In this document: one piece after another, positions 19,564 through 33,044 of the stretch | Position numbering within the stretch: position 1 is the stretch's first letter | Layout: each line of letters starts with the position of its first letter | Source: an uncultured bacterium | Lineage (GTDB): Bacteria; Bacillota; Clostridia; Oscillospirales; Oscillospiraceae | NCBI GenBank assembly: GCA_945873205.1 | Contig: CAMCCC010000002.1 | Location: 1 to 64,000, forward strand | Direction: 5' to 3' | Length of the DNA: 64,000 nucleotides | The notes under the pieces: model-generated | What the model was told of the DNA's origin: nothing | Seen by the model: the letters and a program-made list of their open reading frames with translations, nothing else | Database searches by the model: none | Position numbers and translations under genes: made by a program

Positions 19564-19625
19564 GGCCAGTCCGGCACGGTTTCGGGCTTTCAGCCATTCC
19601 CCCTTTCGGATCAATTCATCTGCAC

Positions 19626-19670
19626 AGCGCCCACTTTGAAACTGCTCAGTTTCAAAAGGGGCGCTTTTTT
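19626..19670 (+). terminator. terminator after the DUF4340 fragment
   Basis: AGCGCCC...AGTTTCAAAAGGGGCGCT forms a long stem with loop GCTC and a TTTTTT tail. The native terminator of the lost operon appears to have been kept. Confidence 0.85.
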
Positions 19671-19721
19671 ATAAAATATGCGGCATGGAACCCCTCTCTT
19701 TCTCATAAATGCAGTTTTTCC

Positions 19722-19853: not shown

Positions 19854-21764
19854 ATGAAAAAACTTGTATGTCTGTTGATGGCACTGGTTATGGCTGCAAC
19901 CATGTTGGCCGGCTGCGGAAGCCAGGATTCTGCCGGAAGGGATGACGGCAAAATCCAGATCAAAGTGCAGTATTTGTGCGGCAGAATGAATCTGGATCTG
20001 GAAGCGGTGCTGGAAGAGAAATTCCCTAATGTTGACATTGTGACAGATGAGCTTGTCGGCACCCCGGATTATATCGTCGCAAAAGAAATGGAGTACAATC
20101 TTGAGCCTGACATTTATCTTTATGAAGGCTTGTCCCATATGGATGATAAAATCATCGCGGAGAAATTCTACGATCTGTCCCAGGAGGAGTTTGTCAATCA
20201 TTTCTATCTTTCTGCAGTTTCGGAATGTATCAATGAGGATGGAGGACTGTATTATCTTCCGGGGCCGGTATATGTTTACGGCATCGTGTACGATAAGACA
20301 GCGTTTCAGGAGCTTGGGCTTGACGTTCCGCACAGCTACACAGAGTTTGTGAATCTTCTGAATGAAGTGCGGGCAATGAACCTGAAAGGAACAGAGCCGG
20401 ACGAAAACGACCCTGACGCACAGGTAACGGTGGATGTGGAGCCCTTTGTCCCCACGGTCAAATGGCCGGATATGTGGACCTTTATTTTTGATTCCTACAT
20501 TTATGACGATTACATCAAGGGCGTCGACAACGCCTTGTGGCTGGACAGATATCAGCAGGGAAACGAGAGCATGATCGGCCATATGGAGGGCGCCGCGGAA
20601 AAACTGATCCAGCTGTTTGATGACGGAATCCTGTCGCCGGCCTTCTGGGAGGTGCGGGCGCCTGTACGCACAGCGAAGCTTTACCGATACCACACATCGC
20701 TTATGACCATCGAATGTCAGTCGGCACAGGGCTTCAATGAGCGTGAACACGCAGATACGCCGGATAACCTTCATGAAATCGGCATGATGCCCTTTTATAC
20801 AAGCGACGAGGCAGACACGGATTATCTGATTTCCATGCCAAGATGTTATTTCGGCATGACCAAAAGAGCCGCTCAGGATGAGGCGAAGAGGGAAGCAATC
20901 CTTGCAATTTTCCATTTCCTCAGCACCATGGAAGGGCAGGACCTGATGATTGAGGGCGGAGGCGGAGAGATCAATCTGCTGAAAGAGAGCAATCTTACCG
21001 ACGCTCCCTTCTATGATGAAGTCAGGAATACCTTCCGCGGCGGAAGAGTCATAACCCGTTTTAATTTCGCTGGCAAGTCCGGCGCGGTGGAGTCCTATAT
21101 GCACGCCACAACCCCTGACCTTGCAGCGGGGAAAATAAGCGTGGAGGATTGGTTGAAAGAGGCGGACCGGGTCAGGGACGAAGCGCTGGAAAGCAAGCCG
21201 GCAGCGGAGCAGTCCTACGGTACGGTCAAAGAAACGCTTACCATGGAGGAAACAGCCGTTGTTGTGGGAGAAGCCTATCTGCACGCAACCGGTGCGGAGA
21301 TCGGGATTGTTCCGTGCAGAGCCAGCTTCGGTATGAAAAACCGGCTTTATCAGGGCGATATTACCGACAGCGCCATCGATACCGTAATGACTACAAGAAT
21401 GAGTGTGGGCACCGTTACCGAGGACCCAAACCATGTCAATCTCGTTACCGTGAAGATCACGGGGCAACAGCTCATGGATCTGCTGGAGGAAAACAAGGAT
21501 ACCTTTGTTGGTCTGGCGGGGCTTGATGTTGTGTATGATCCTTCCCGGCCGGAAGGCGAAAGATATGTCTCCATCAAGTACAGGGGAAAGGAAATCGGGC
21601 CTGAGGACGAATTCATCGCAGCTTCCGTAAAGGGCGCCGTGAAGAGTCTCCCCGTTGCAGCGTCATACGATGGGCTTGTTTTCCGTGATATGTTCATCAG
21701 CTACCTTGACAGTGTTGGCGGTGAAATTTCCGGAGCACCGCAAAGCCTGAAAATTGTGAAATAG
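19854..21764 (+). CDS. solute-binding lipoprotein fused to a 5'-nucleotidase C-terminal-like domain
   Basis: The 636-residue protein starts with a lipoprotein signal ending in LAGC (C21). Residues about 35-440 look like a family 1 extracellular solute-binding protein (PDIYLYEGLSHMDDK, GGLYYLPGPVYVYGIVYDKTAF). The last about 170 residues (from ETAVVVGEAYLHATGAEIGI through DAVTVKITGQQLMDLL-type sequence to DMFISYLDSVGG) resemble the C-terminal substrate domain of 5'-nucleotidases. ATG at 19854 follows AGGGAG. No permease or ATPase genes accompany it; a sensor kinase starts 26 bp later, so it probably presents a ligand to that sensor rather than feeding a transporter. The ligand is unknown; sugars or nucleotide-like compounds are possible. 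Confidence 0.75.
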   Translation: MKKLVCLLMALVMAATMLAGCGSQDSAGRDDGKIQIKVQYLCGRMNLDLEAVLEEKFPNVDIVTDELVGTPDYIVAKEMEYNLEPDIYLYEGLSHMDDKIIAEKFYDLSQEEFVNHFYLSAVSECINEDGGLYYLPGPVYVYGIVYDKTAFQELGLDVPHSYTEFVNLLNEVRAMNLKGTEPDENDPDAQVTVDVEPFVPTVKWPDMWTFIFDSYIYDDYIKGVDNALWLDRYQQGNESMIGHMEGAAEKLIQLFDDGILSPAFWEVRAPVRTAKLYRYHTSLMTIECQSAQGFNEREHADTPDNLHEIGMMPFYTSDEADTDYLISMPRCYFGMTKRAAQDEAKREAILAIFHFLSTMEGQDLMIEGGGGEINLLKESNLTDAPFYDEVRNTFRGGRVITRFNFAGKSGAVESYMHATTPDLAAGKISVEDWLKEADRVRDEALESKPAAEQSYGTVKETLTMEETAVVVGEAYLHATGAEIGIVPCRASFGMKNRLYQGDITDSAIDTVMTTRMSVGTVTEDPNHVNLVTVKITGQQLMDLLEENKDTFVGLAGLDVVYDPSRPEGERYVSIKYRGKEIGPEDEFIAASVKGAVKSLPVAASYDGLVFRDMFISYLDSVGGEISGAPQSLKIVK

Positions 21765-21790
21765 AAGTGTGTTGCAGAGGAGAGCCTATC

Positions 21791-24433
21791 GTGAGAAGAA
21801 ATCAGCTTAAAATGGCGCCCACGGTTGCGGGGATTCTCATCCTGTCGCTGCTGTTGACCTATTTCCTTATGGCAGGCACCATGAACTCCATAAACGACGT
21901 CAGCGAACAGGAAGCCCTTGCCCTTCTGACAGAAAACGCAGTGCAGATGGAGCACATCATAGAAAATCAGCTGACGAACAATTGGAAACAGATTGATACC
22001 GTGTGCGTGGCTCTGGAGCGTTCGCAAGCCCATTCGGTCAATGCGCTTGCTTCCTTTTTGCAGGATGTGTCAGCCGACGCATATGACATACTGCTGCTTT
22101 CGGATGATGGAACTTCCCTGGACAGAGCCGGCCAACAGGGCTTGAAGCAGATTACGAAGGACCTTCTGCCTTTGATGCAGGGTGAAGAAAAAATCCTTCT
22201 TCTGCGGCAGGATAAGGATACGGATCTTCTGGTGTTCGGAAAAAGGATTCCGCCTTTTTCCGTGGGCGCAGAGAAGATGGAATATCTGTTTGTGTACTAC
22301 AAGCTGGATTCCTATCTGGAGCTTCTGAAGATGGAATCCTTTGGGGGAAACGGGCAAATCCGCATCATCGACAGCAAGGGCACCACTCTGCTCCATTCCG
22401 ACAACCTCCCGGAGTCCGAAAACAGGTATCTGTTCTTCGGCACCTTCAGGGACGCAGCCTTTCTTAACCACGATGCAGTAAAGGACAGCGATTCCTTCCG
22501 GGAATATGTGCTTTCGGGAAAGAGTGATGCAATTCATGTTGTGCGGGACTCGGGAAAAAATGAAATCATCAGTTTTTCCCGGATTTCCAACACGGATTGG
22601 CACATCGTAATTTCCATAGACCAGTCCCTGGTCATGGGGACAAGGCTTTCCAGTGTGGAGAAGATCGGCAAAACCTCCCTGCTGGCAGTGATGTTCATTG
22701 TGTTGTTTTCTTTGCTCACGATCTCCTTGATCGTATATAAGTCTCAGAAGAAAACAAAGGCCCAGAACCGGGAGCTTGAAAAGCTCAATGAGCAGCTTCG
22801 TGAAAACAACGCCTCCCTGGAAGAGGCCAGGCATCTGGCGGAACAATCCTTCCATCTGGCTGAGAAGGCGAATAAAGCAAAGAGCGCCTTCCTTTCCAGC
22901 ATGTCCCACGACATCCGCACACCGATGAACGCGGTGATCGGCTTTGCCACGCTGGCGCTGGCCAATGCTGACAACGCGGAAAAAGTAAAGGTATATTTGG
23001 CGAAGATTCTCGCCTCCGGCAATCACCTGCTCTCCCTCATTAACGACATTCTGGATATGAGCCGTATTGAAAGCGGCAAGATTCACCTGGAAGAGACGGA
23101 GGCCAACCTATCCGACATCTTCCACGACATTAAAACCATTATCAGCGGTCAGATTCAGGCCAAAGAGATGGATCTCTATATGGACATCATGGATGTGACC
23201 GATGAGGATGTATTCTGTGACAAGACCCGGCTGAACCAGGTGTTGCTGAATCTGCTGTCCAACGCCATCAAATTCACGGCCCCCGGCGGCGCGGTGTCGG
23301 TCCGGGTGTCCCAGCTGCCCAATGCGCCCGAGGGGAAGGGCCTGTATGAGATTCGTGTGAAGGACACCGGCATCGGCATGAGCAAGGAATTTGCCGAAAA
23401 GATATTTGATCCTTTTGAACGGGAACGCACCTCCACCGTCAGCAAGATTCAGGGTACCGGCCTGGGCATGGCCATCACCAAAAACATCATTGATATGATG
23501 GGCGGCACCATTGAGGTACACACCGAGCAAGGGGTGGGCACCGAATTCGTGATCCGGCTGACCATGCGTCTGCAGTCCCAGCGCCGCAGGGTGGAAAAGA
23601 TCAAGGAGCTGGAAGGGCTGAAGGCTCTGGTGGTGGATGACGACTTCAACACCTGCGACAGCGTGACCAAGATGCTGGTGCAGGTGGGGATGCGTTCGGA
23701 GTGGACGCTCTCCGGCAAGGAGGCCGTCCTCCGTGCCAGACAGGCCATTGAAATCAATGACGCCTTCCACGCCTACATCATCGACTGGCGGCTGCCGGAT
23801 ATGAACGGCATCGAGGTCACCCGCCGGATCCGCGCCTTGGGGGATGACACCCCTGTCATTATCCTCACCGCTTACGACTGGTCGGATATCGAGGAGGAGG
23901 CAAGAGCCGCCGGTGTGACGGCGTTCTGCTCCAAGCCGATGTTTATGTCTGATTTGCGTGAAACGCTGATGACTGCCCTTGGTCAGCAGGAGGCCAGGAA
24001 GAAGCACATCCTGCCCGCTCCTCACGAATCGGAATTCTTTAAGGGGAAACACCTGCTGCTGGCTGAGGACAACGAACTGAACCGGGAAATTGCGTTGGAA
24101 ATTCTGAGCGGCTATGGCTTTGTGATCGACACGGTGGAAAACGGTGCGGCAGCCGTAGCGAAAGTGGCTGCTTCCAGGCCGGGCTGTTACGACCTTGTGC
24201 TGATGGATATTCAGATGCCGGTCATGGATGGCTGCGAAGCGACCCGGGCAATCCGCAAATTGGAGGAGCCTGCTTTGGCCAACATCCCCATTCTGGCAAT
24301 GACCGCAAACGCATTCGACGAGGATCGGAACGCCGCCATAGCCTGCGGAATGAACGGCTTCCTCTCCAAGCCCATTCAGATTGAGGAGCTGATCCAAACC
24401 CTGCAGAGCATATTCCAAACAGGCGCGGTATGA
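21791..24433 (+). CDS. hybrid sensor histidine kinase with two receiver domains
   Basis: The 880-residue protein has, in order: a membrane helix (about residues 8-27), an extracytoplasmic sensing region (about 28-295), a second helix (about 298-318), a coiled coil, HisKA with FLSSMSHDIRTPMNAVIGF (phospho-His), HATPase with NLLSNAIKFTAPGG and GTGLGMAITKNIIDMMGG, a first receiver (VVDDDFNTCDSVTK ... IIDWRLPDMNGIEV) and a second receiver (LLAEDNELNREIALEIL ... VLMDIQMPVMDGCEATRAI). I use the GTG at 21791 behind GAGGAG. There is no output DNA-binding domain and no partner regulator nearby, so phosphotransfer must go elsewhere. It is cotranscribed with the lipoprotein, its likely ligand-presenting partner. 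Confidence 0.88.
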   Translation: MRRNQLKMAPTVAGILILSLLLTYFLMAGTMNSINDVSEQEALALLTENAVQMEHIIENQLTNNWKQIDTVCVALERSQAHSVNALASFLQDVSADAYDILLLSDDGTSLDRAGQQGLKQITKDLLPLMQGEEKILLLRQDKDTDLLVFGKRIPPFSVGAEKMEYLFVYYKLDSYLELLKMESFGGNGQIRIIDSKGTTLLHSDNLPESENRYLFFGTFRDAAFLNHDAVKDSDSFREYVLSGKSDAIHVVRDSGKNEIISFSRISNTDWHIVISIDQSLVMGTRLSSVEKIGKTSLLAVMFIVLFSLLTISLIVYKSQKKTKAQNRELEKLNEQLRENNASLEEARHLAEQSFHLAEKANKAKSAFLSSMSHDIRTPMNAVIGFATLALANADNAEKVKVYLAKILASGNHLLSLINDILDMSRIESGKIHLEETEANLSDIFHDIKTIISGQIQAKEMDLYMDIMDVTDEDVFCDKTRLNQVLLNLLSNAIKFTAPGGAVSVRVSQLPNAPEGKGLYEIRVKDTGIGMSKEFAEKIFDPFERERTSTVSKIQGTGLGMAITKNIIDMMGGTIEVHTEQGVGTEFVIRLTMRLQSQRRRVEKIKELEGLKALVVDDDFNTCDSVTKMLVQVGMRSEWTLSGKEAVLRARQAIEINDAFHAYIIDWRLPDMNGIEVTRRIRALGDDTPVIILTAYDWSDIEEEARAAGVTAFCSKPMFMSDLRETLMTALGQQEARKKHILPAPHESEFFKGKHLLLAEDNELNREIALEILSGYGFVIDTVENGAAAVAKVAASRPGCYDLVLMDIQMPVMDGCEATRAIRKLEEPALANIPILAMTANAFDEDRNAAIACGMNGFLSKPIQIEELIQTLQSIFQTGAV

Positions 24434-24485
24434 ACATTTTTTGCATGGCCCTGTTTGAATCGCATTCCCAATGGAAAAAAGTTTT

Positions 24486-24537
24486 AAGCGCCGGTTTGGT
24501 GGTCTTGATGGCCACACAGACCGGCGCTTTTTCTTTT
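24486..24537 (+). terminator. terminator of the lipoprotein/kinase operon
   Basis: AAGCGCCGGT / ACCGGCGCTT stem with a 24-nt loop, followed by TTTCTTTTT. Confidence 0.8.
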
Positions 24538-24616
24538 TCCAAAAGCAATTTTTATGCAGGGAGAAAAGGAAGCACTCCCTCGATTTGTTTCATGGAGAAG
24601 GACTGCTCCCGGGCCT

Positions 24617-28889: not shown

Positions 28890-29558
28890 TTACATAACTT
28901 TATCTTTGTTCAGTTCCTCGCTTTTGTGCACCCCGGTAACGGAAAAGATGACCCACTCGGCAATGTTGGTGGCGTGGTCGCCGATGCGTTCAAAGTACTT
29001 GCTGATCATCAGCAGGTCCAGGGCGAAGCCCCCGTTTGCCGGTGTCTGGGCAATCATCTGGATCAGGCTGTTTTTCACCTGGCTGAAATAGTCATCCACC
29101 ACGTCGTCATGGGCGATGACCGCTTCTGCCAGAGCCACATCCTGCTTCACATAGGCGTCCACGCTGTCGGTAACCATGCAGATGGCGGCCCGGGCCATGG
29201 CGCTGAGCAGGGCGCAATGGGCTTCTCCGCAGCCCTCCAGATAACCCACAATCTCGGCAATGTCCTCCGCCTGGTCGCCAATGCGCTCCATGTCGGTGAT
29301 CATTTTCAGGGCGGCGGAGATCTGCCGCAGGTCACCGGCCACCGGCTGCTGCCGCAGCAGCAGCTTCAGGCAGATGCCCTCCACATCCCGCTCCTTCTGA
29401 TCCAGGGCCGCTGCAATGGGCGGCACCCTGGCGGCCAGGGCGGGGCTGTTCTCCGCCAGAGCCTTGGCCGCCAAAGCGATGGCGTCCTCACACAGGGCGC
29501 CCATCTGGGTCATTTCCTCCTTCAGCAGCGCCAGCTGCTGGTCAAAATAGTTCCGCAT
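28890..29558 (-). CDS. phoU: phosphate transport regulator PhoU
   Basis: PhoU links the Pst importer to phosphate signalling and dampens uptake. The 222-residue protein has the two PhoU helical repeats, with metal-binding motifs of the type DMERIGDQAEDIAEIV (about residue 90) and YFERIGDHATNIAEWV (about 190). Its ATG shares one base with the pstB stop, so it is the last gene of the pst operon. No phoR/phoB pair is in the window. Confidence 0.94.
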   Translation of the reverse strand: MRNYFDQQLALLKEEMTQMGALCEDAIALAAKALAENSPALAARVPPIAAALDQKERDVEGICLKLLLRQQPVAGDLRQISAALKMITDMERIGDQAEDIAEIVGYLEGCGEAHCALLSAMARAAICMVTDSVDAYVKQDVALAEAVIAHDDVVDDYFSQVKNSLIQMIAQTPANGGFALDLLMISKYFERIGDHATNIAEWVIFSVTGVHKSEELNKDKVM

Positions 29559-30313
29559 CAGCCAAACCTCCCTGTTATATAGGCTTCCGTGCGCTTATCC
29601 GCCGGTTGGTCAAACATCGTCTGCGTGTCCCCATACTCCACCAGCTCTCCCAGCAGGAAGAAGGCGGTGTTGTCGGAGATGCGCAGGGCCTGCTGCATAT
29701 TGTGGGTGACGATCACAATGGTGTAGCGGTCCTTCAGCCCCATTGCCAGCTCCTCAATGCGGGAGGTGGAGATGGGGTCCAGGGCGCTGGTGGGCTCATC
29801 CATCAGCAGCACACTGGGCTTTACCGCCAGCGCCCGGGCGATGCACAGCCGCTGCTGCTGGCCGCCGGAGAGGCCCAGCGCGTTCTTCTTCAGCCTGTCC
29901 TTCACCTCGTCCCAGATGGCGGCGTCCCGGAGGGCCTGCTCCACGATCTCATCCAGCTCCCCCCGTTTTCGGATGCCATGGGTGCGGGGGCCGTAGGCGA
30001 TGTTGTCATAGATGCTCATGGGAAAGGGGTTGGGCTTCTGGAACACCATGCCCACCTCCCGGCGCAGCTGGTTCACATCCACATTTTTGTCGTAAATATC
30101 CTCCTCCCGATAGCACACCTGCCCCGTGATCTTCACGCCGGGCACCAGGTCATTCATTCGGTTCAGGGTTTTGAGGAAGGTGGACTTGCCGCAGCCGGAG
30201 GGCCCGATCAGGGCGGTAATGCTGTTTTCGGCAATGTCCATGTTGATATTTTTCAGGGCCTGGGCCTGGCCGTACCACAGGCACAGATCCCTGGCAGTCA
30301 TAATGTTGTTCAT
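29558..30313 (-). CDS. pstB: phosphate ABC transporter ATP-binding protein
   Basis: PstB powers high-affinity phosphate uptake. Walker [10 protein letters not shown], the Pst-specific [16 protein letters not shown], signature LSGGQQQR and Walker [12 protein letters not shown] are intact in 251 residues. The track start at 30631 is inside pstA; the ATG at 30313 overlaps the pstA stop as ATGA, giving coupled translation. Confidence 0.95.
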
Positions 30314-31173
30314 TGGCTCGTTCTCCTTTTGCATCCTTTCTGGACCAGTGCCGCCAGCAGATTGATCAGCAGGGTCAGCAGCATCAGAATGGCGGCGATG
30401 GCAAAGGCCACCGCAAACTCTCCCTGCTCCTTGGCATAGACGTACAGGGCCACCGTCAGGCTGGCGCCGGGGCTCAGCAGCCCCTCCTTCAGGCCATGGA
30501 CCGCGTGGGCAAAGCCGGCGGTATACAGCAGTGCGGCGGATTCCCCCAGCACCCGGCCTGCCGCCAGGATGCAGCCGGTGATAATCCCATCCAGGCAGTT
30601 GGGCAGCACCACCGTGCGGACCACCCGCCACTTCCCTGCCCCCAGGCCGAAAGCGCCTTCCCGATAGCTTTGGGGCACGGTTTTCAGACTCTCCTGGGTG
30701 GTGCGCATGATGGTAGGCAGATTCATGATCACCAGGGTCAGCGCACCGGCCAGCAGGGAGGTTTTCATGCGCAGGAACTGGCAGAAGAACAGCATACCCA
30801 CCAGGCCGTAGATGATGGAAGGGATGCCGGAGAGGGTCTCAGCGGCATACTCGATCAGGCTTACCAGCCGGCGATTCCCGGCGTATTCGGTGAGGTACAC
30901 CGCCGCCCCTACCCCCAGGGGCAGGCCCACCGCCAGCGTGGCCAGCAGCAGATACAGGGTGTTCAAGATATCCGGCAGGATGCCGATCCGCTCTGTCAGA
31001 TAGCTGGGTTTGGTGCTCAGCAGTTCCCAGCTGATGTTGGGCAGGCCCCGGATCAGCACATAGCCAAACAGGAACAGCACCAGGGCCGCGGTGACGGCCA
31101 CGGAAAAGAGCATCAGCGCCTTCATCAGCAGGATATAGGCCTTCCGCTCCCCGCTCAGTTTATTGTTCAGCAT
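30310..31173 (-). CDS. pstA: phosphate ABC transporter permease PstA
   Basis: One of two membrane subunits of the phosphate importer. The 287-residue protein has about six helices, the PstA pattern [24 protein letters not shown] and the coupling loop [22 protein letters not shown]. It begins 3 bp after pstC and its stop overlaps pstB. Confidence 0.94.
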
Positions 31174-31175
31174 AG

Positions 31176-32045
31176 TCAGCCCTCCTTACTGCCCTTGAGG
31201 AACGCTTTCAGCGCGGCGTTGATCAGCATGATGAACAGGAACAGCACCAGGGCGATGGAAAACAGGGCTTGCTGCTGCAAGCCGGCGGAATAGGCCATCT
31301 CGCTGGCCACCGCCGTGGTGAGAAAGCGGACGCTCTGAAACAAGTCCGGCATATTGGGCGCGTTGCCGGAGACCATCATCACCGCCATGGTTTCGCCGAT
31401 GGCCCGGCCCACCCCCAGCACCACCGCCGCGGCAATGCCGCTTTTGGCGGCGGGGACGGAAACCCGGAACCAGGTCTCCACCGGCGTGGCCCCCAGGGCC
31501 AGAGAAGCCTCCTCATATTCCCTGGGCACTGCCTCCAGCGCCGTAATGGAAACCTTGATGATGGAGGGCAGGATCATCACCGCCAGCACCAGAATGGCCG
31601 CCAGCAGGCTGGCCCCGTCCGGCACATGGAACAGCCGCCGGATCCCCGGCACCAGCACCAGCATGCCCACCAGGCCGTAGACCACCGAGGGGATTCCCGC
31701 CAGCAGGCTGACCGCGGACTCCATGATATTCCTGATGCCCGGCTGTGCCATCTTTGCCAGGTACACCGCGCACAAAAAGCCCAGCGGCACGCCGATGAGG
31801 ATGGCCCCGGCTGTGCCGTAGATACTGGTGAGAATAAAGGGCAAAATGCCATAGGCCGGCTCGGCAGCGGTGGAGGCCCAGCGGCGGCCAAACAGGAAAT
31901 CCGCCAGACCGATCTCCCGGATGGCCGGGATGCCGGACACCACCAGATACAGGGTGATCAGCAGCACACAGCCTACGGTGATCAGGCCCAGCAGGAGAAA
32001 CAGGCCATGAACCAGGTTTTCCACAAGTTGTTTTTTCTTCGCCAT
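31176..32045 (-). CDS. pstC: phosphate ABC transporter permease PstC
   Basis: The second membrane subunit, 289 residues and about six helices, with DFLFGRRWASTAAEPAYGI-LP near the N-terminus and the coupling loop YEEASLALGATPVETWFRVSVP. I use the ATG at 32045 (MAKKKQLVENL); the track start at 32093 falls within the upstream hairpin. It is separated from pstS by a stem-loop. Confidence 0.93.
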   Translation of the reverse strand: MAKKKQLVENLVHGLFLLLGLITVGCVLLITLYLVVSGIPAIREIGLADFLFGRRWASTAAEPAYGILPFILTSIYGTAGAILIGVPLGFLCAVYLAKMAQPGIRNIMESAVSLLAGIPSVVYGLVGMLVLVPGIRRLFHVPDGASLLAAILVLAVMILPSIIKVSITALEAVPREYEEASLALGATPVETWFRVSVPAAKSGIAAAVVLGVGRAIGETMAVMMVSGNAPNMPDLFQSVRFLTTAVASEMAYSAGLQQQALFSIALVLFLFIMLINAALKAFLKGSKEG

Positions 32046-32061
32046 ATTGTCGCCTTTCCGA

Positions 32062-32089
32062 AAAGGGCGGGGAGCAATCCCCGCCCTTT
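32062..32089 (-). terminator. attenuating stem-loop between pstS and pstC
   Basis: AAAGGGCGGGGA / TCCCCGCCCTTT forms a strong hairpin with loop TTGC followed on the minus strand by TTTTC. It probably terminates part of the transcripts or protects pstS mRNA, giving excess binding protein. Confidence 0.65.
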
Positions 32090-32099
32090 CCATTTTTTC

Positions 32100-32969
32100 T
32101 CAGTTGGCAGATACCACGCCGGCGCCGGCGATGATTTCATTGGCCTCGGTGGAGGTGATGTAGTTGAAGAAGTCCTGGGCTGCAGCGGAGAGTTCAACGC
32201 CCTCCTTGGTCACCAGCACGAAGGGGCGCTGCACCAGATAGCTGCCGTCCTTGACGGTCTCCTCGCTGGGCGTCACGCCCTCAACCGCCAGGGCCTTCAC
32301 GGTGTCCTTGACGGAGGCCAGGGAAGCGTAGCCGATGGCGTTGGGGTTCTGGGCCACGGTGGTGATCACGTCGCCGGTGGAAGTCAGCTCCTGGCGGTAC
32401 TGGCAGGCGTCGGTGGTACCGGTGATGGATTCAAAGCCGTCCCGGGTGCCGGAGCCGGCCTCACGGCCGATGAGGACGATCTCCGCGTCGTCGCCGCCCA
32501 GTTCGCTCCAGTTGGTGATTTCGCCGGTGTAGACCTTGGCAATCTGCTCCAGGCTCAGGTCATTGATGGGGTTGGCGGGGTTTACGATGATGGCGATGCC
32601 GTCATAAGCCAGGATGGTCTGGGTAAGGCCGGAGGCCTTCTCCTCATCCTTCAGTGCACGGCTGGACAGGCCGATATCGCAGCGGCCCTCTCCCACGGCC
32701 TTGATGCCGGAGCCGGAGCCGGTGGGGTTATAGGTAACGGTGACGCCGGTCTTCTGCTCATAGGCTTCGCCCAGGGCGCCGATCACCTTCTCCATGGAGG
32801 TGGAGCCGTCGGTGGAAACGCTGCCGGAGAGGGCAGGTGCCTCGGCGGCAGCTTCAGCCGGAGCAGCTGCAGGAGCCTGGGTGGCGGCAGGGGCGCTGTT
32901 GCTGCCGCAGGCGGAGAGCACAGACAGGGTCATCAGTACAGTCAGTACAAGAGCAATGGTCTTTTTCAT
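32100..32969 (-). CDS. pstS: phosphate-binding lipoprotein PstS
   Basis: PstS captures phosphate outside the membrane. The signal peptide ends in the lipobox LSAC (C21), followed by an Ala/Pro-rich linker and the phosphate-binding fold: GSVSTDGSTSMEKVI, YNPTGSGSGIKAV, RCDIGLSSRALKDEE and REAGSGTRDGFESI provide the classical phosphate ligands. It is the first gene of pstSCAB-phoU. The linker SAPAATQAPA also appears in the lysine-type binding protein at 61.4-62.3 kb. Confidence 0.95.
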   Translation of the reverse strand: MKKTIALVLTVLMTLSVLSACGSNSAPAATQAPAAAPAEAAAEAPALSGSVSTDGSTSMEKVIGALGEAYEQKTGVTVTYNPTGSGSGIKAVGEGRCDIGLSSRALKDEEKASGLTQTILAYDGIAIIVNPANPINDLSLEQIAKVYTGEITNWSELGGDDAEIVLIGREAGSGTRDGFESITGTTDACQYRQELTSTGDVITTVAQNPNAIGYASLASVKDTVKALAVEGVTPSEETVKDGSYLVQRPFVLVTKEGVELSAAAQDFFNYITSTEANEIIAGAGVVSAN

Positions 32970-33044
32970 TTTCGTTTTCCTTTCTCCAAAAGGTTTCTTT
33001 ATTTTTTATATCTTCCTGATACGCCTGTGATTTTAACCCTGCTG

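Follow-up and report, generated by a model that had tools for sequence, protein, structure and literature searches.

A solute-binding lipoprotein fused to a 5'-nucleotidase C-terminal domain and its adjoining hybrid kinase: a probable two-gene receptor family of gut Clostridia

Introduction

Binding proteins that act as co-receptors for sensor kinases have hitherto been known one by one. In the AI-2 receptor of Vibrio (LuxP-LuxQ-LuxU), a binding protein controls a hybrid kinase, and a separate HPt protein acts next. LuxP is a periplasmic binding protein of a class other than the one described here and carries no nucleotidase domain. TorT and TorS of Escherichia coli likewise combine a periplasmic binding protein with a hybrid kinase; an HPt is built into TorS itself, and TorT is no lipoprotein of the type reported below. 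A further arrangement is XylFII-LytS, in which we know of no phosphorelay and no nucleotidase domain. The structure of LuxPQ is cited in PMC11113362, while the extracellular complex of two solute-binding proteins (SBPs) with two sensor domains in XylFII-LytS is cited in PMC10384115 as a model for such co-receptors. In the CuaD-CuaS-CuaR system of Ruminiclostridium cellulolyticum, an SBP is encoded beside a sensor kinase (PMC10384115).

In this work, we describe two adjoining genes from the genome of a gut Clostridia bacterium, encoding a surface lipoprotein (P0001) and a membrane sensor kinase (P0002). They lie in a stretch of 64,000 nucleotides, referred to here as the window. The pair resembles LuxP-LuxQ-LuxU in its proposed combination of a binding protein, a hybrid kinase and a separate HPt protein; in contrast, its binding protein is a lipoprotein, its kinase has two receivers, and P0002 matches LuxQ through the kinase core only (second-best NCBIfam match, 323 bits against a cut-off of 1200). 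TorT-TorS shares the periplasmic binding protein and the hybrid kinase, and TorS is the best NCBIfam match of P0002, whereas the score of 359 bits lies below the cut-off of 676. XylFII-LytS shows the pairing of an SBP with extracellular sensor domains that is proposed for the window pair, but with a different SBP class and a different sensor. CuaD-CuaS-CuaR is nearer in taxonomy than LuxPQ and also has an SBP gene beside a sensor kinase gene in a Gram-positive clostridium; unlike P0002, CuaS is not described as a hybrid kinase, a YesN/AraC-type regulator adjoins it, and the system has no nucleotidase C domain (PMC10384115). UshA and other 5'-nucleotidases possess a C-terminal domain homologous to that of P0001, whereas their metallophosphatase N domain is replaced by an SBP domain in P0001, and their pocket motifs are absent from the window clade.

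By analogy, the best-supported model is that the window pair would work like LuxP-LuxQ-LuxU and CuaD-CuaS while being a member of neither. It belongs to what is apparently a self-contained, horizontally mobile family spread across several families of the class. The family is marked by a sugar-binding domain joined to the substrate-binding half of a nucleotidase and, as it appears, by a phosphorelay instead of a linked regulator.

The Two Genes and Their Surroundings

The lipoprotein gene occupies positions 19854–21764 of the plus strand and encodes 636 amino acids. Its type II signal peptide, recognized by reading the sequence (19854–19916), has the lipobox LAGC, with the codon of the lipidated Cys21 at 19914. 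The mature part consists of a family 1 (sugar-type) solute-binding domain (residues about 30–430; 19941–21143) fused to a 5'-nucleotidase C-terminal domain (21171–21761). By sequence, the SBP resemblance of P0001 is remote, as PF13416 remains below its Pfam cut-off, and the best match of the N-terminal part to sugar-binding SBPs in a phmmer search of the PDB has an E-value of 8.6e-6. The identity is clear in relatives of the same layout, which match PF01547 with E 1.7e-9 and PF13416 with E 3.5e-11. The C domain is matched directly by PF02872 over a core of residues 470–590 (E 1.7e-12; 48.2 bits, cut-off 23.6). Pfam finds no metallophosphatase N domain in P0001; the SBP domain occupies its place. 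The lipobox and Cys21, the PDB matches and PF02872 together confirm the lipoprotein with a family 1 binding domain and a 5'-nucleotidase-C-like domain that had been proposed from the sequence alone.

The reading frame of the kinase is open from 21767, but translation very likely starts at its 9th codon, a GTG at 21791 (VRRNQLKM). This start is preceded by GAGGAG, and five orthologous kinases begin with MRKYQFKI or MKNQLKIA at 22–27 nt past the lipoprotein stop; the start was moved from 21767 because of this ribosome site and these orthologue starts. P0002 thus spans 21791–24433 on the plus strand (880 amino acids), with the layout TM-dCache-TM-HisKA-HATPase-REC-REC. Between the two transmembrane helices lies a predicted extracytoplasmic sensor of the dCache type (21884–22666, boundaries approximate), for which the PF02743 (dCache_1) match of P0002 is sub-threshold, as it is in each of six kinases scanned. 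A sensor profile matches nothing in the PDB except ligand-binding domains from chemotaxis receptors, PctA and PctB among them (E 4e-4 at best). An AlphaFold model of the sensor, built from an alignment of six sequences at about 80% identity, is poor (pLDDT 48). The HisKA domain (22877–23077) contains the H-box SHDIRTP at 22904–22924, and the HATPase_c domain (23219–23566) contains NLLSNAIKF and GTGLGM. Receiver 1 (23627–23965; IIDWRLP at 23777–23797) and receiver 2 (24056–24403; LMDIQMP at 24200–24220) both keep the Asp, Thr and Lys, and the H-box His is intact as well. Pfam thus bears out the earlier description of a hybrid kinase with an extracytoplasmic sensor, HisKA, HATPase and two receivers, with the dCache_1 match remaining sub-threshold.

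Terminator-like hairpins of the Rho-independent type, each with a T-run, flank the pair on the plus strand, 5' of the operon at 19626–19672 (fold of 19625–19690, dG −24.2 kcal/mol) and 3' of it at 24486–24540 (fold of 24478–24545, dG −36.2 kcal/mol). Such strong hairpins on both sides fit a two-gene transcript. A pattern scanner, whose allowed stem and loop differ, listed neither of them, and the promoter and terminator patterns that it scanned for occurred at chance level. The sequence-only reading had found neither transporter subunits nor an output regulator near the pair, and both statements hold: no sugar ABC permease lies within 9 kb, the sole match being a Pst-like permease at 31176–32093, and no other receiver domain is present on the whole contig C2 (169 kb). 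The Pst phosphate transporter-like genes, together with a phoU-like gene, lie at 28890–33000 on the minus strand, about 4.5 kb beyond the pair, and are probably unrelated to it.

Co-Conservation of Lipoprotein and Kinase

Homologues were searched for with the lipoprotein as the sole query. Close pairs, with lipoproteins 80–86% identical to P0001, were found in five genomes, and the kinase follows 22–27 nt downstream in all five. Searching 151 genomes from the family and 392 from the class added further relatives, at about 20–30% identity. The fusion of an SBP with a nucleotidase C domain is not unique to the genome of the window but spread over several families of the class; a literature search of limited scope found no description of it. 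Among 28 fusion loci, a contig end truncates three (L039, L040, L114); a same-strand hybrid kinase is present at 24 and missing at one (L046). The kinase is thus present in 24 of the 25 evaluable loci, normally directly adjoining. At loci with a single lipoprotein, it directly follows, with spacings that range from overlap, which depends in part on the start codon chosen, up to 49 nt; in L113, it lies upstream.

In the same searches, 3/16 loci with an SBP only and 0/17 loci with a nucleotidase only had a hybrid kinase in their stretch, flanks of 1.5 kb included. The difference from the fusion loci is pronounced (Fisher p 4e-7 and 7e-11, respectively), and these counts represent a strong association rather than an exact rate, since some of the loci are related to one another and scoring was confined to the best candidates of each genome. 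Sugar ABC permeases show a different picture, as 26 of the 27 fusion stretches have none within 9 kb; the exception is L033, where a sugar ABC operon is located some 4 kb upstream. Among the SBP-only controls, L050 has two permeases, and L048 is a generic SBP pair without a kinase. The expectation that the two genes are co-conserved has thus stood up to a wider sampling of genomes.

Co-Divergence and Horizontal Movement

For 19 pairs, with the close orthologues left out, distance matrices were compared by a Mantel test. Lipoprotein distances correlate with those of the sensor (r 0.81) more than with those of the kinase core (0.60), and sensor and core correlate at 0.62. This co-divergence of lipoprotein and sensor is what direct contact would give; similar fast rates and shared ancestry may contribute to it. 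Among the close orthologues, the identity is 80–86% for the lipoprotein and 71–78% for the kinase sensor.

The pair probably moves between Clostridia horizontally as one unit. Sixty other genomes of the window's genus all lacked the fusion lipoprotein, giving only weak partial matches to the SBP or the C domain, while a neighbouring gene, that of DegV, is retained within the genus at up to 75%. The close pairs occur in metagenome-assembled genomes (MAGs) labelled Lachnospiraceae, Oscillospiraceae, Blautia and Clostridia, labels that may be wrong. Generic ATPase matches aside, the pair is all that the window (9–34 kb) has in common with the five close-pair loci. The GC content of the pair is 0.525 (0.59 and 0.70 at third positions), compared with 0.573 for the window and with third-position values of 0.79–0.88 in four genes further downstream, although GC is lowered over a whole stretch of 12–25 kb; contigs carrying the close pairs have 0.43–0.46. 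Genus-mates without the fusion, the lack of other shared genes and the differing GC point to horizontal acquisition as a unit.

The Nucleotidase C Domain

In UshA, Phe429 and Phe498 stack on either side of the base; the C domain of the related CpdB is inactive by itself yet contains the substrate-binding site (PMC7922932). An AlphaFold model of P0001, from an alignment of six sequences at about 80% identity, was uninformative (pLDDT 33), and profile comparison was therefore used instead of a fold search. A family profile of 22 C domains finds nucleotidases as its best PDB matches (3ivd, 1e-16; 2z1a, 5e-16; UshA, 2e-11). Together with Pfam, this identifies the C-terminal part as a true homologue of 5'-nucleotidase C domains, as first suspected, and not as another fold. 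As P0001 has no N domain, it cannot be a nucleotidase.

Three pocket motifs were scored: NGGxxR, P(F/Y)xN at the position of UshA Phe429, and NGD(G/D)(Y/F). All three are kept in seven of the 22 family members (L037, L038, L045, L107, L108, L110 and L112), and the PFDN of L037 aligns with the PFGN of UshA. None of the three was found in P0001 or its close relatives, which suggests that the window clade has probably lost the nucleotide site. For the seven members with an intact pocket, we put forward, tentatively and as rather less likely than its opposite, that they are two-site receptors, with a nucleotide or nucleoside in the C-domain pocket and a sugar-like ligand in the SBP cleft. Gut Clostridia would then read outside nucleotides via a phosphorelay, and the window clade would have kept the receptor while losing the nucleotide site. 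If so, this would be a new class of extracellular nucleotide sensor, built from the substrate-binding half of an enzyme. The intact-pocket clade makes the ligand question testable with purified protein.

Phosphorelay Partners

Pfam detects no HPt domain in P0002. No other recognized hybrid kinase was found among the receiver matches inspected in the window's genome; these are frames of 195–271 aa, apart from an overlong frame ending in an OmpR-type regulator and one frame of 528 aa. Two HPt matches occur in the genome; each is truncated by a contig end (on C4 and C23) and retains an intact phospho-acceptor motif, AAHTLKG. Both are of the HPt family that is also found next to fusion-kinase pairs, with identities of 63% to the L153 protein and 51% to the L041 protein. 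The two cut genes are near-identical (G000 C4:116832-118012 and C23:32900-34070; loci L071 and L070), and the open reading frame after each encodes a Spo0A C-terminal DNA-binding domain without a receiver, intact in C4 (192 aa) and frame-broken in C23.

In the relatives, an HPt gene stands beside the pair in 5 of 24 cases (L036, L041, L109, L113 and L157). L157 is a compact HPt-lipoprotein-kinase operon, and its genome harbours the close pair L032 as well. At L153, a locus in the genome with the close pair L034, the genes of an HPt protein and of an OmpR-type regulator (Response_reg and Trans_reg_C) overlap. The phosphorelay part of the proposal is in keeping with the occurrence of one HPt family both next to five relatives and in the window's genome. 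The search for an orphan HPt protein or regulator, suggested at the outset, thus yielded the two contig-cut HPt genes but no terminal regulator in the window's genome, which is 91% complete, so partners may be missing from it. Receiver 1 is absent from the relative L031, whereas the receiver 2 type is kept in all paired kinases, including single-receiver relatives; this makes receiver 2 the likely relay donor.

Some further genes of this kind were observed. A small Spo0A_C reading frame immediately precedes the regulator and HPt genes of L153, and receiver-less Spo0A_C proteins of about 120–150 aa occur besides full-length Spo0A (L159:5142-5507; G543). A decayed HPt-lipoprotein-kinase operon is found at L156:4559-6264, where the HPt is intact and the lipoprotein and kinase are present only as fragments.

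Co-Receptor Model and Alternative Explanations

The recurrence of the pair across many gut Clostridia, seemingly as a mobile unit, suggests that the two genes probably encode one receptor for an outside molecule. We consider it probable that the lipoprotein serves as co-receptor on the dCache sensor of the kinase, with a phosphorelay via receiver 2 and an HPt protein. The lipoprotein would be anchored outside the membrane, hold an extracellular ligand in its SBP cleft and dock on the dCache sensor; the nucleotidase C domain may be an adaptor or a second binding site without catalysis of its own. Ligand occupancy would alter autophosphorylation at the H-box, from which the phosphate would pass to receiver 2, with receiver 1 as an optional modulating or competing acceptor. 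Receiver 2 would then hand it to the separately encoded HPt protein and, through it, to a response regulator elsewhere in the genome. The contact, the sugar-like class of the ligand, the direction of control and the HPt and regulator partners are the parts of this scheme that we infer. The strong co-conservation of the pair supports the ligand-presenting co-receptor of the sequence-only reading. Some findings count against a single receptor: L046 has the fusion without a kinase, HPt genes are linked to only 5 of 24 pairs, and those in the window's genome are neither linked to the pair nor complete. If the proposed scheme is right, gut Clostridia may sense extracellular sugars or nucleotides through members of this pair family, which are direct candidates for that role.

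A different role for the lipoprotein is conceivable, in which it no longer binds a ligand and regulates the kinase structurally, by inhibition or activation. Direct ligand binding is possible for dCache sensors, and domains of this type usually bind small ligands themselves, so the sensor of P0002 could be the binding site. The loss of the C-domain pocket motifs in the window clade would agree with this, as would the ability of CuaSR to respond to cellobiose, if less well, without its SBP (PMC10384115). Against it, the lipoprotein is better conserved than the sensor among the close orthologues, as expected of a binding protein selected for its ligand, and we regard such a ligand-free regulator as unlikely. 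The lipoprotein might instead be the substrate-binding subunit of an ABC importer with its permease encoded elsewhere, the kinase merely regulating uptake of the same solute. Its N-terminal domain does belong to the sugar SBP superfamily, and orphan SBPs sharing permeases exist; the sugar ABC operon upstream of L033 would suit this too. Permeases are nevertheless missing around the other 26 of the 27 fusion stretches while the kinase is present, and the additional C domain could hinder docking on a permease. With the kinase linked and permeases not, the importer was rejected as the leading explanation, and its probability is low.

A chance neighbourhood of the two genes, or passive carriage of the pair on mobile DNA, would accord with the apparent horizontal transfer. 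But the association holds at 24 of 25 loci in several families, in pairs diverged to about 20% identity whose other neighbours have changed, which makes this explanation barely credible; chance adjacency as such is refuted by co-conservation at this depth.

Related Gene Arrangements

Four loci (L043, L111, L113 and L114) contain two fusion lipoproteins each, in tandem or close together, so two different binding proteins may serve one kinase there. SBPs without a nucleotidase C domain adjoin hybrid kinases in L012, L020 and L026, and the fusion is perhaps one branch of a wider habit of pairing SBPs with hybrid kinases. At two loci (L107:5342-8596 and L108:10411-13659), a second large hybrid kinase of about 1080 aa with two receivers is located directly upstream of the pair.
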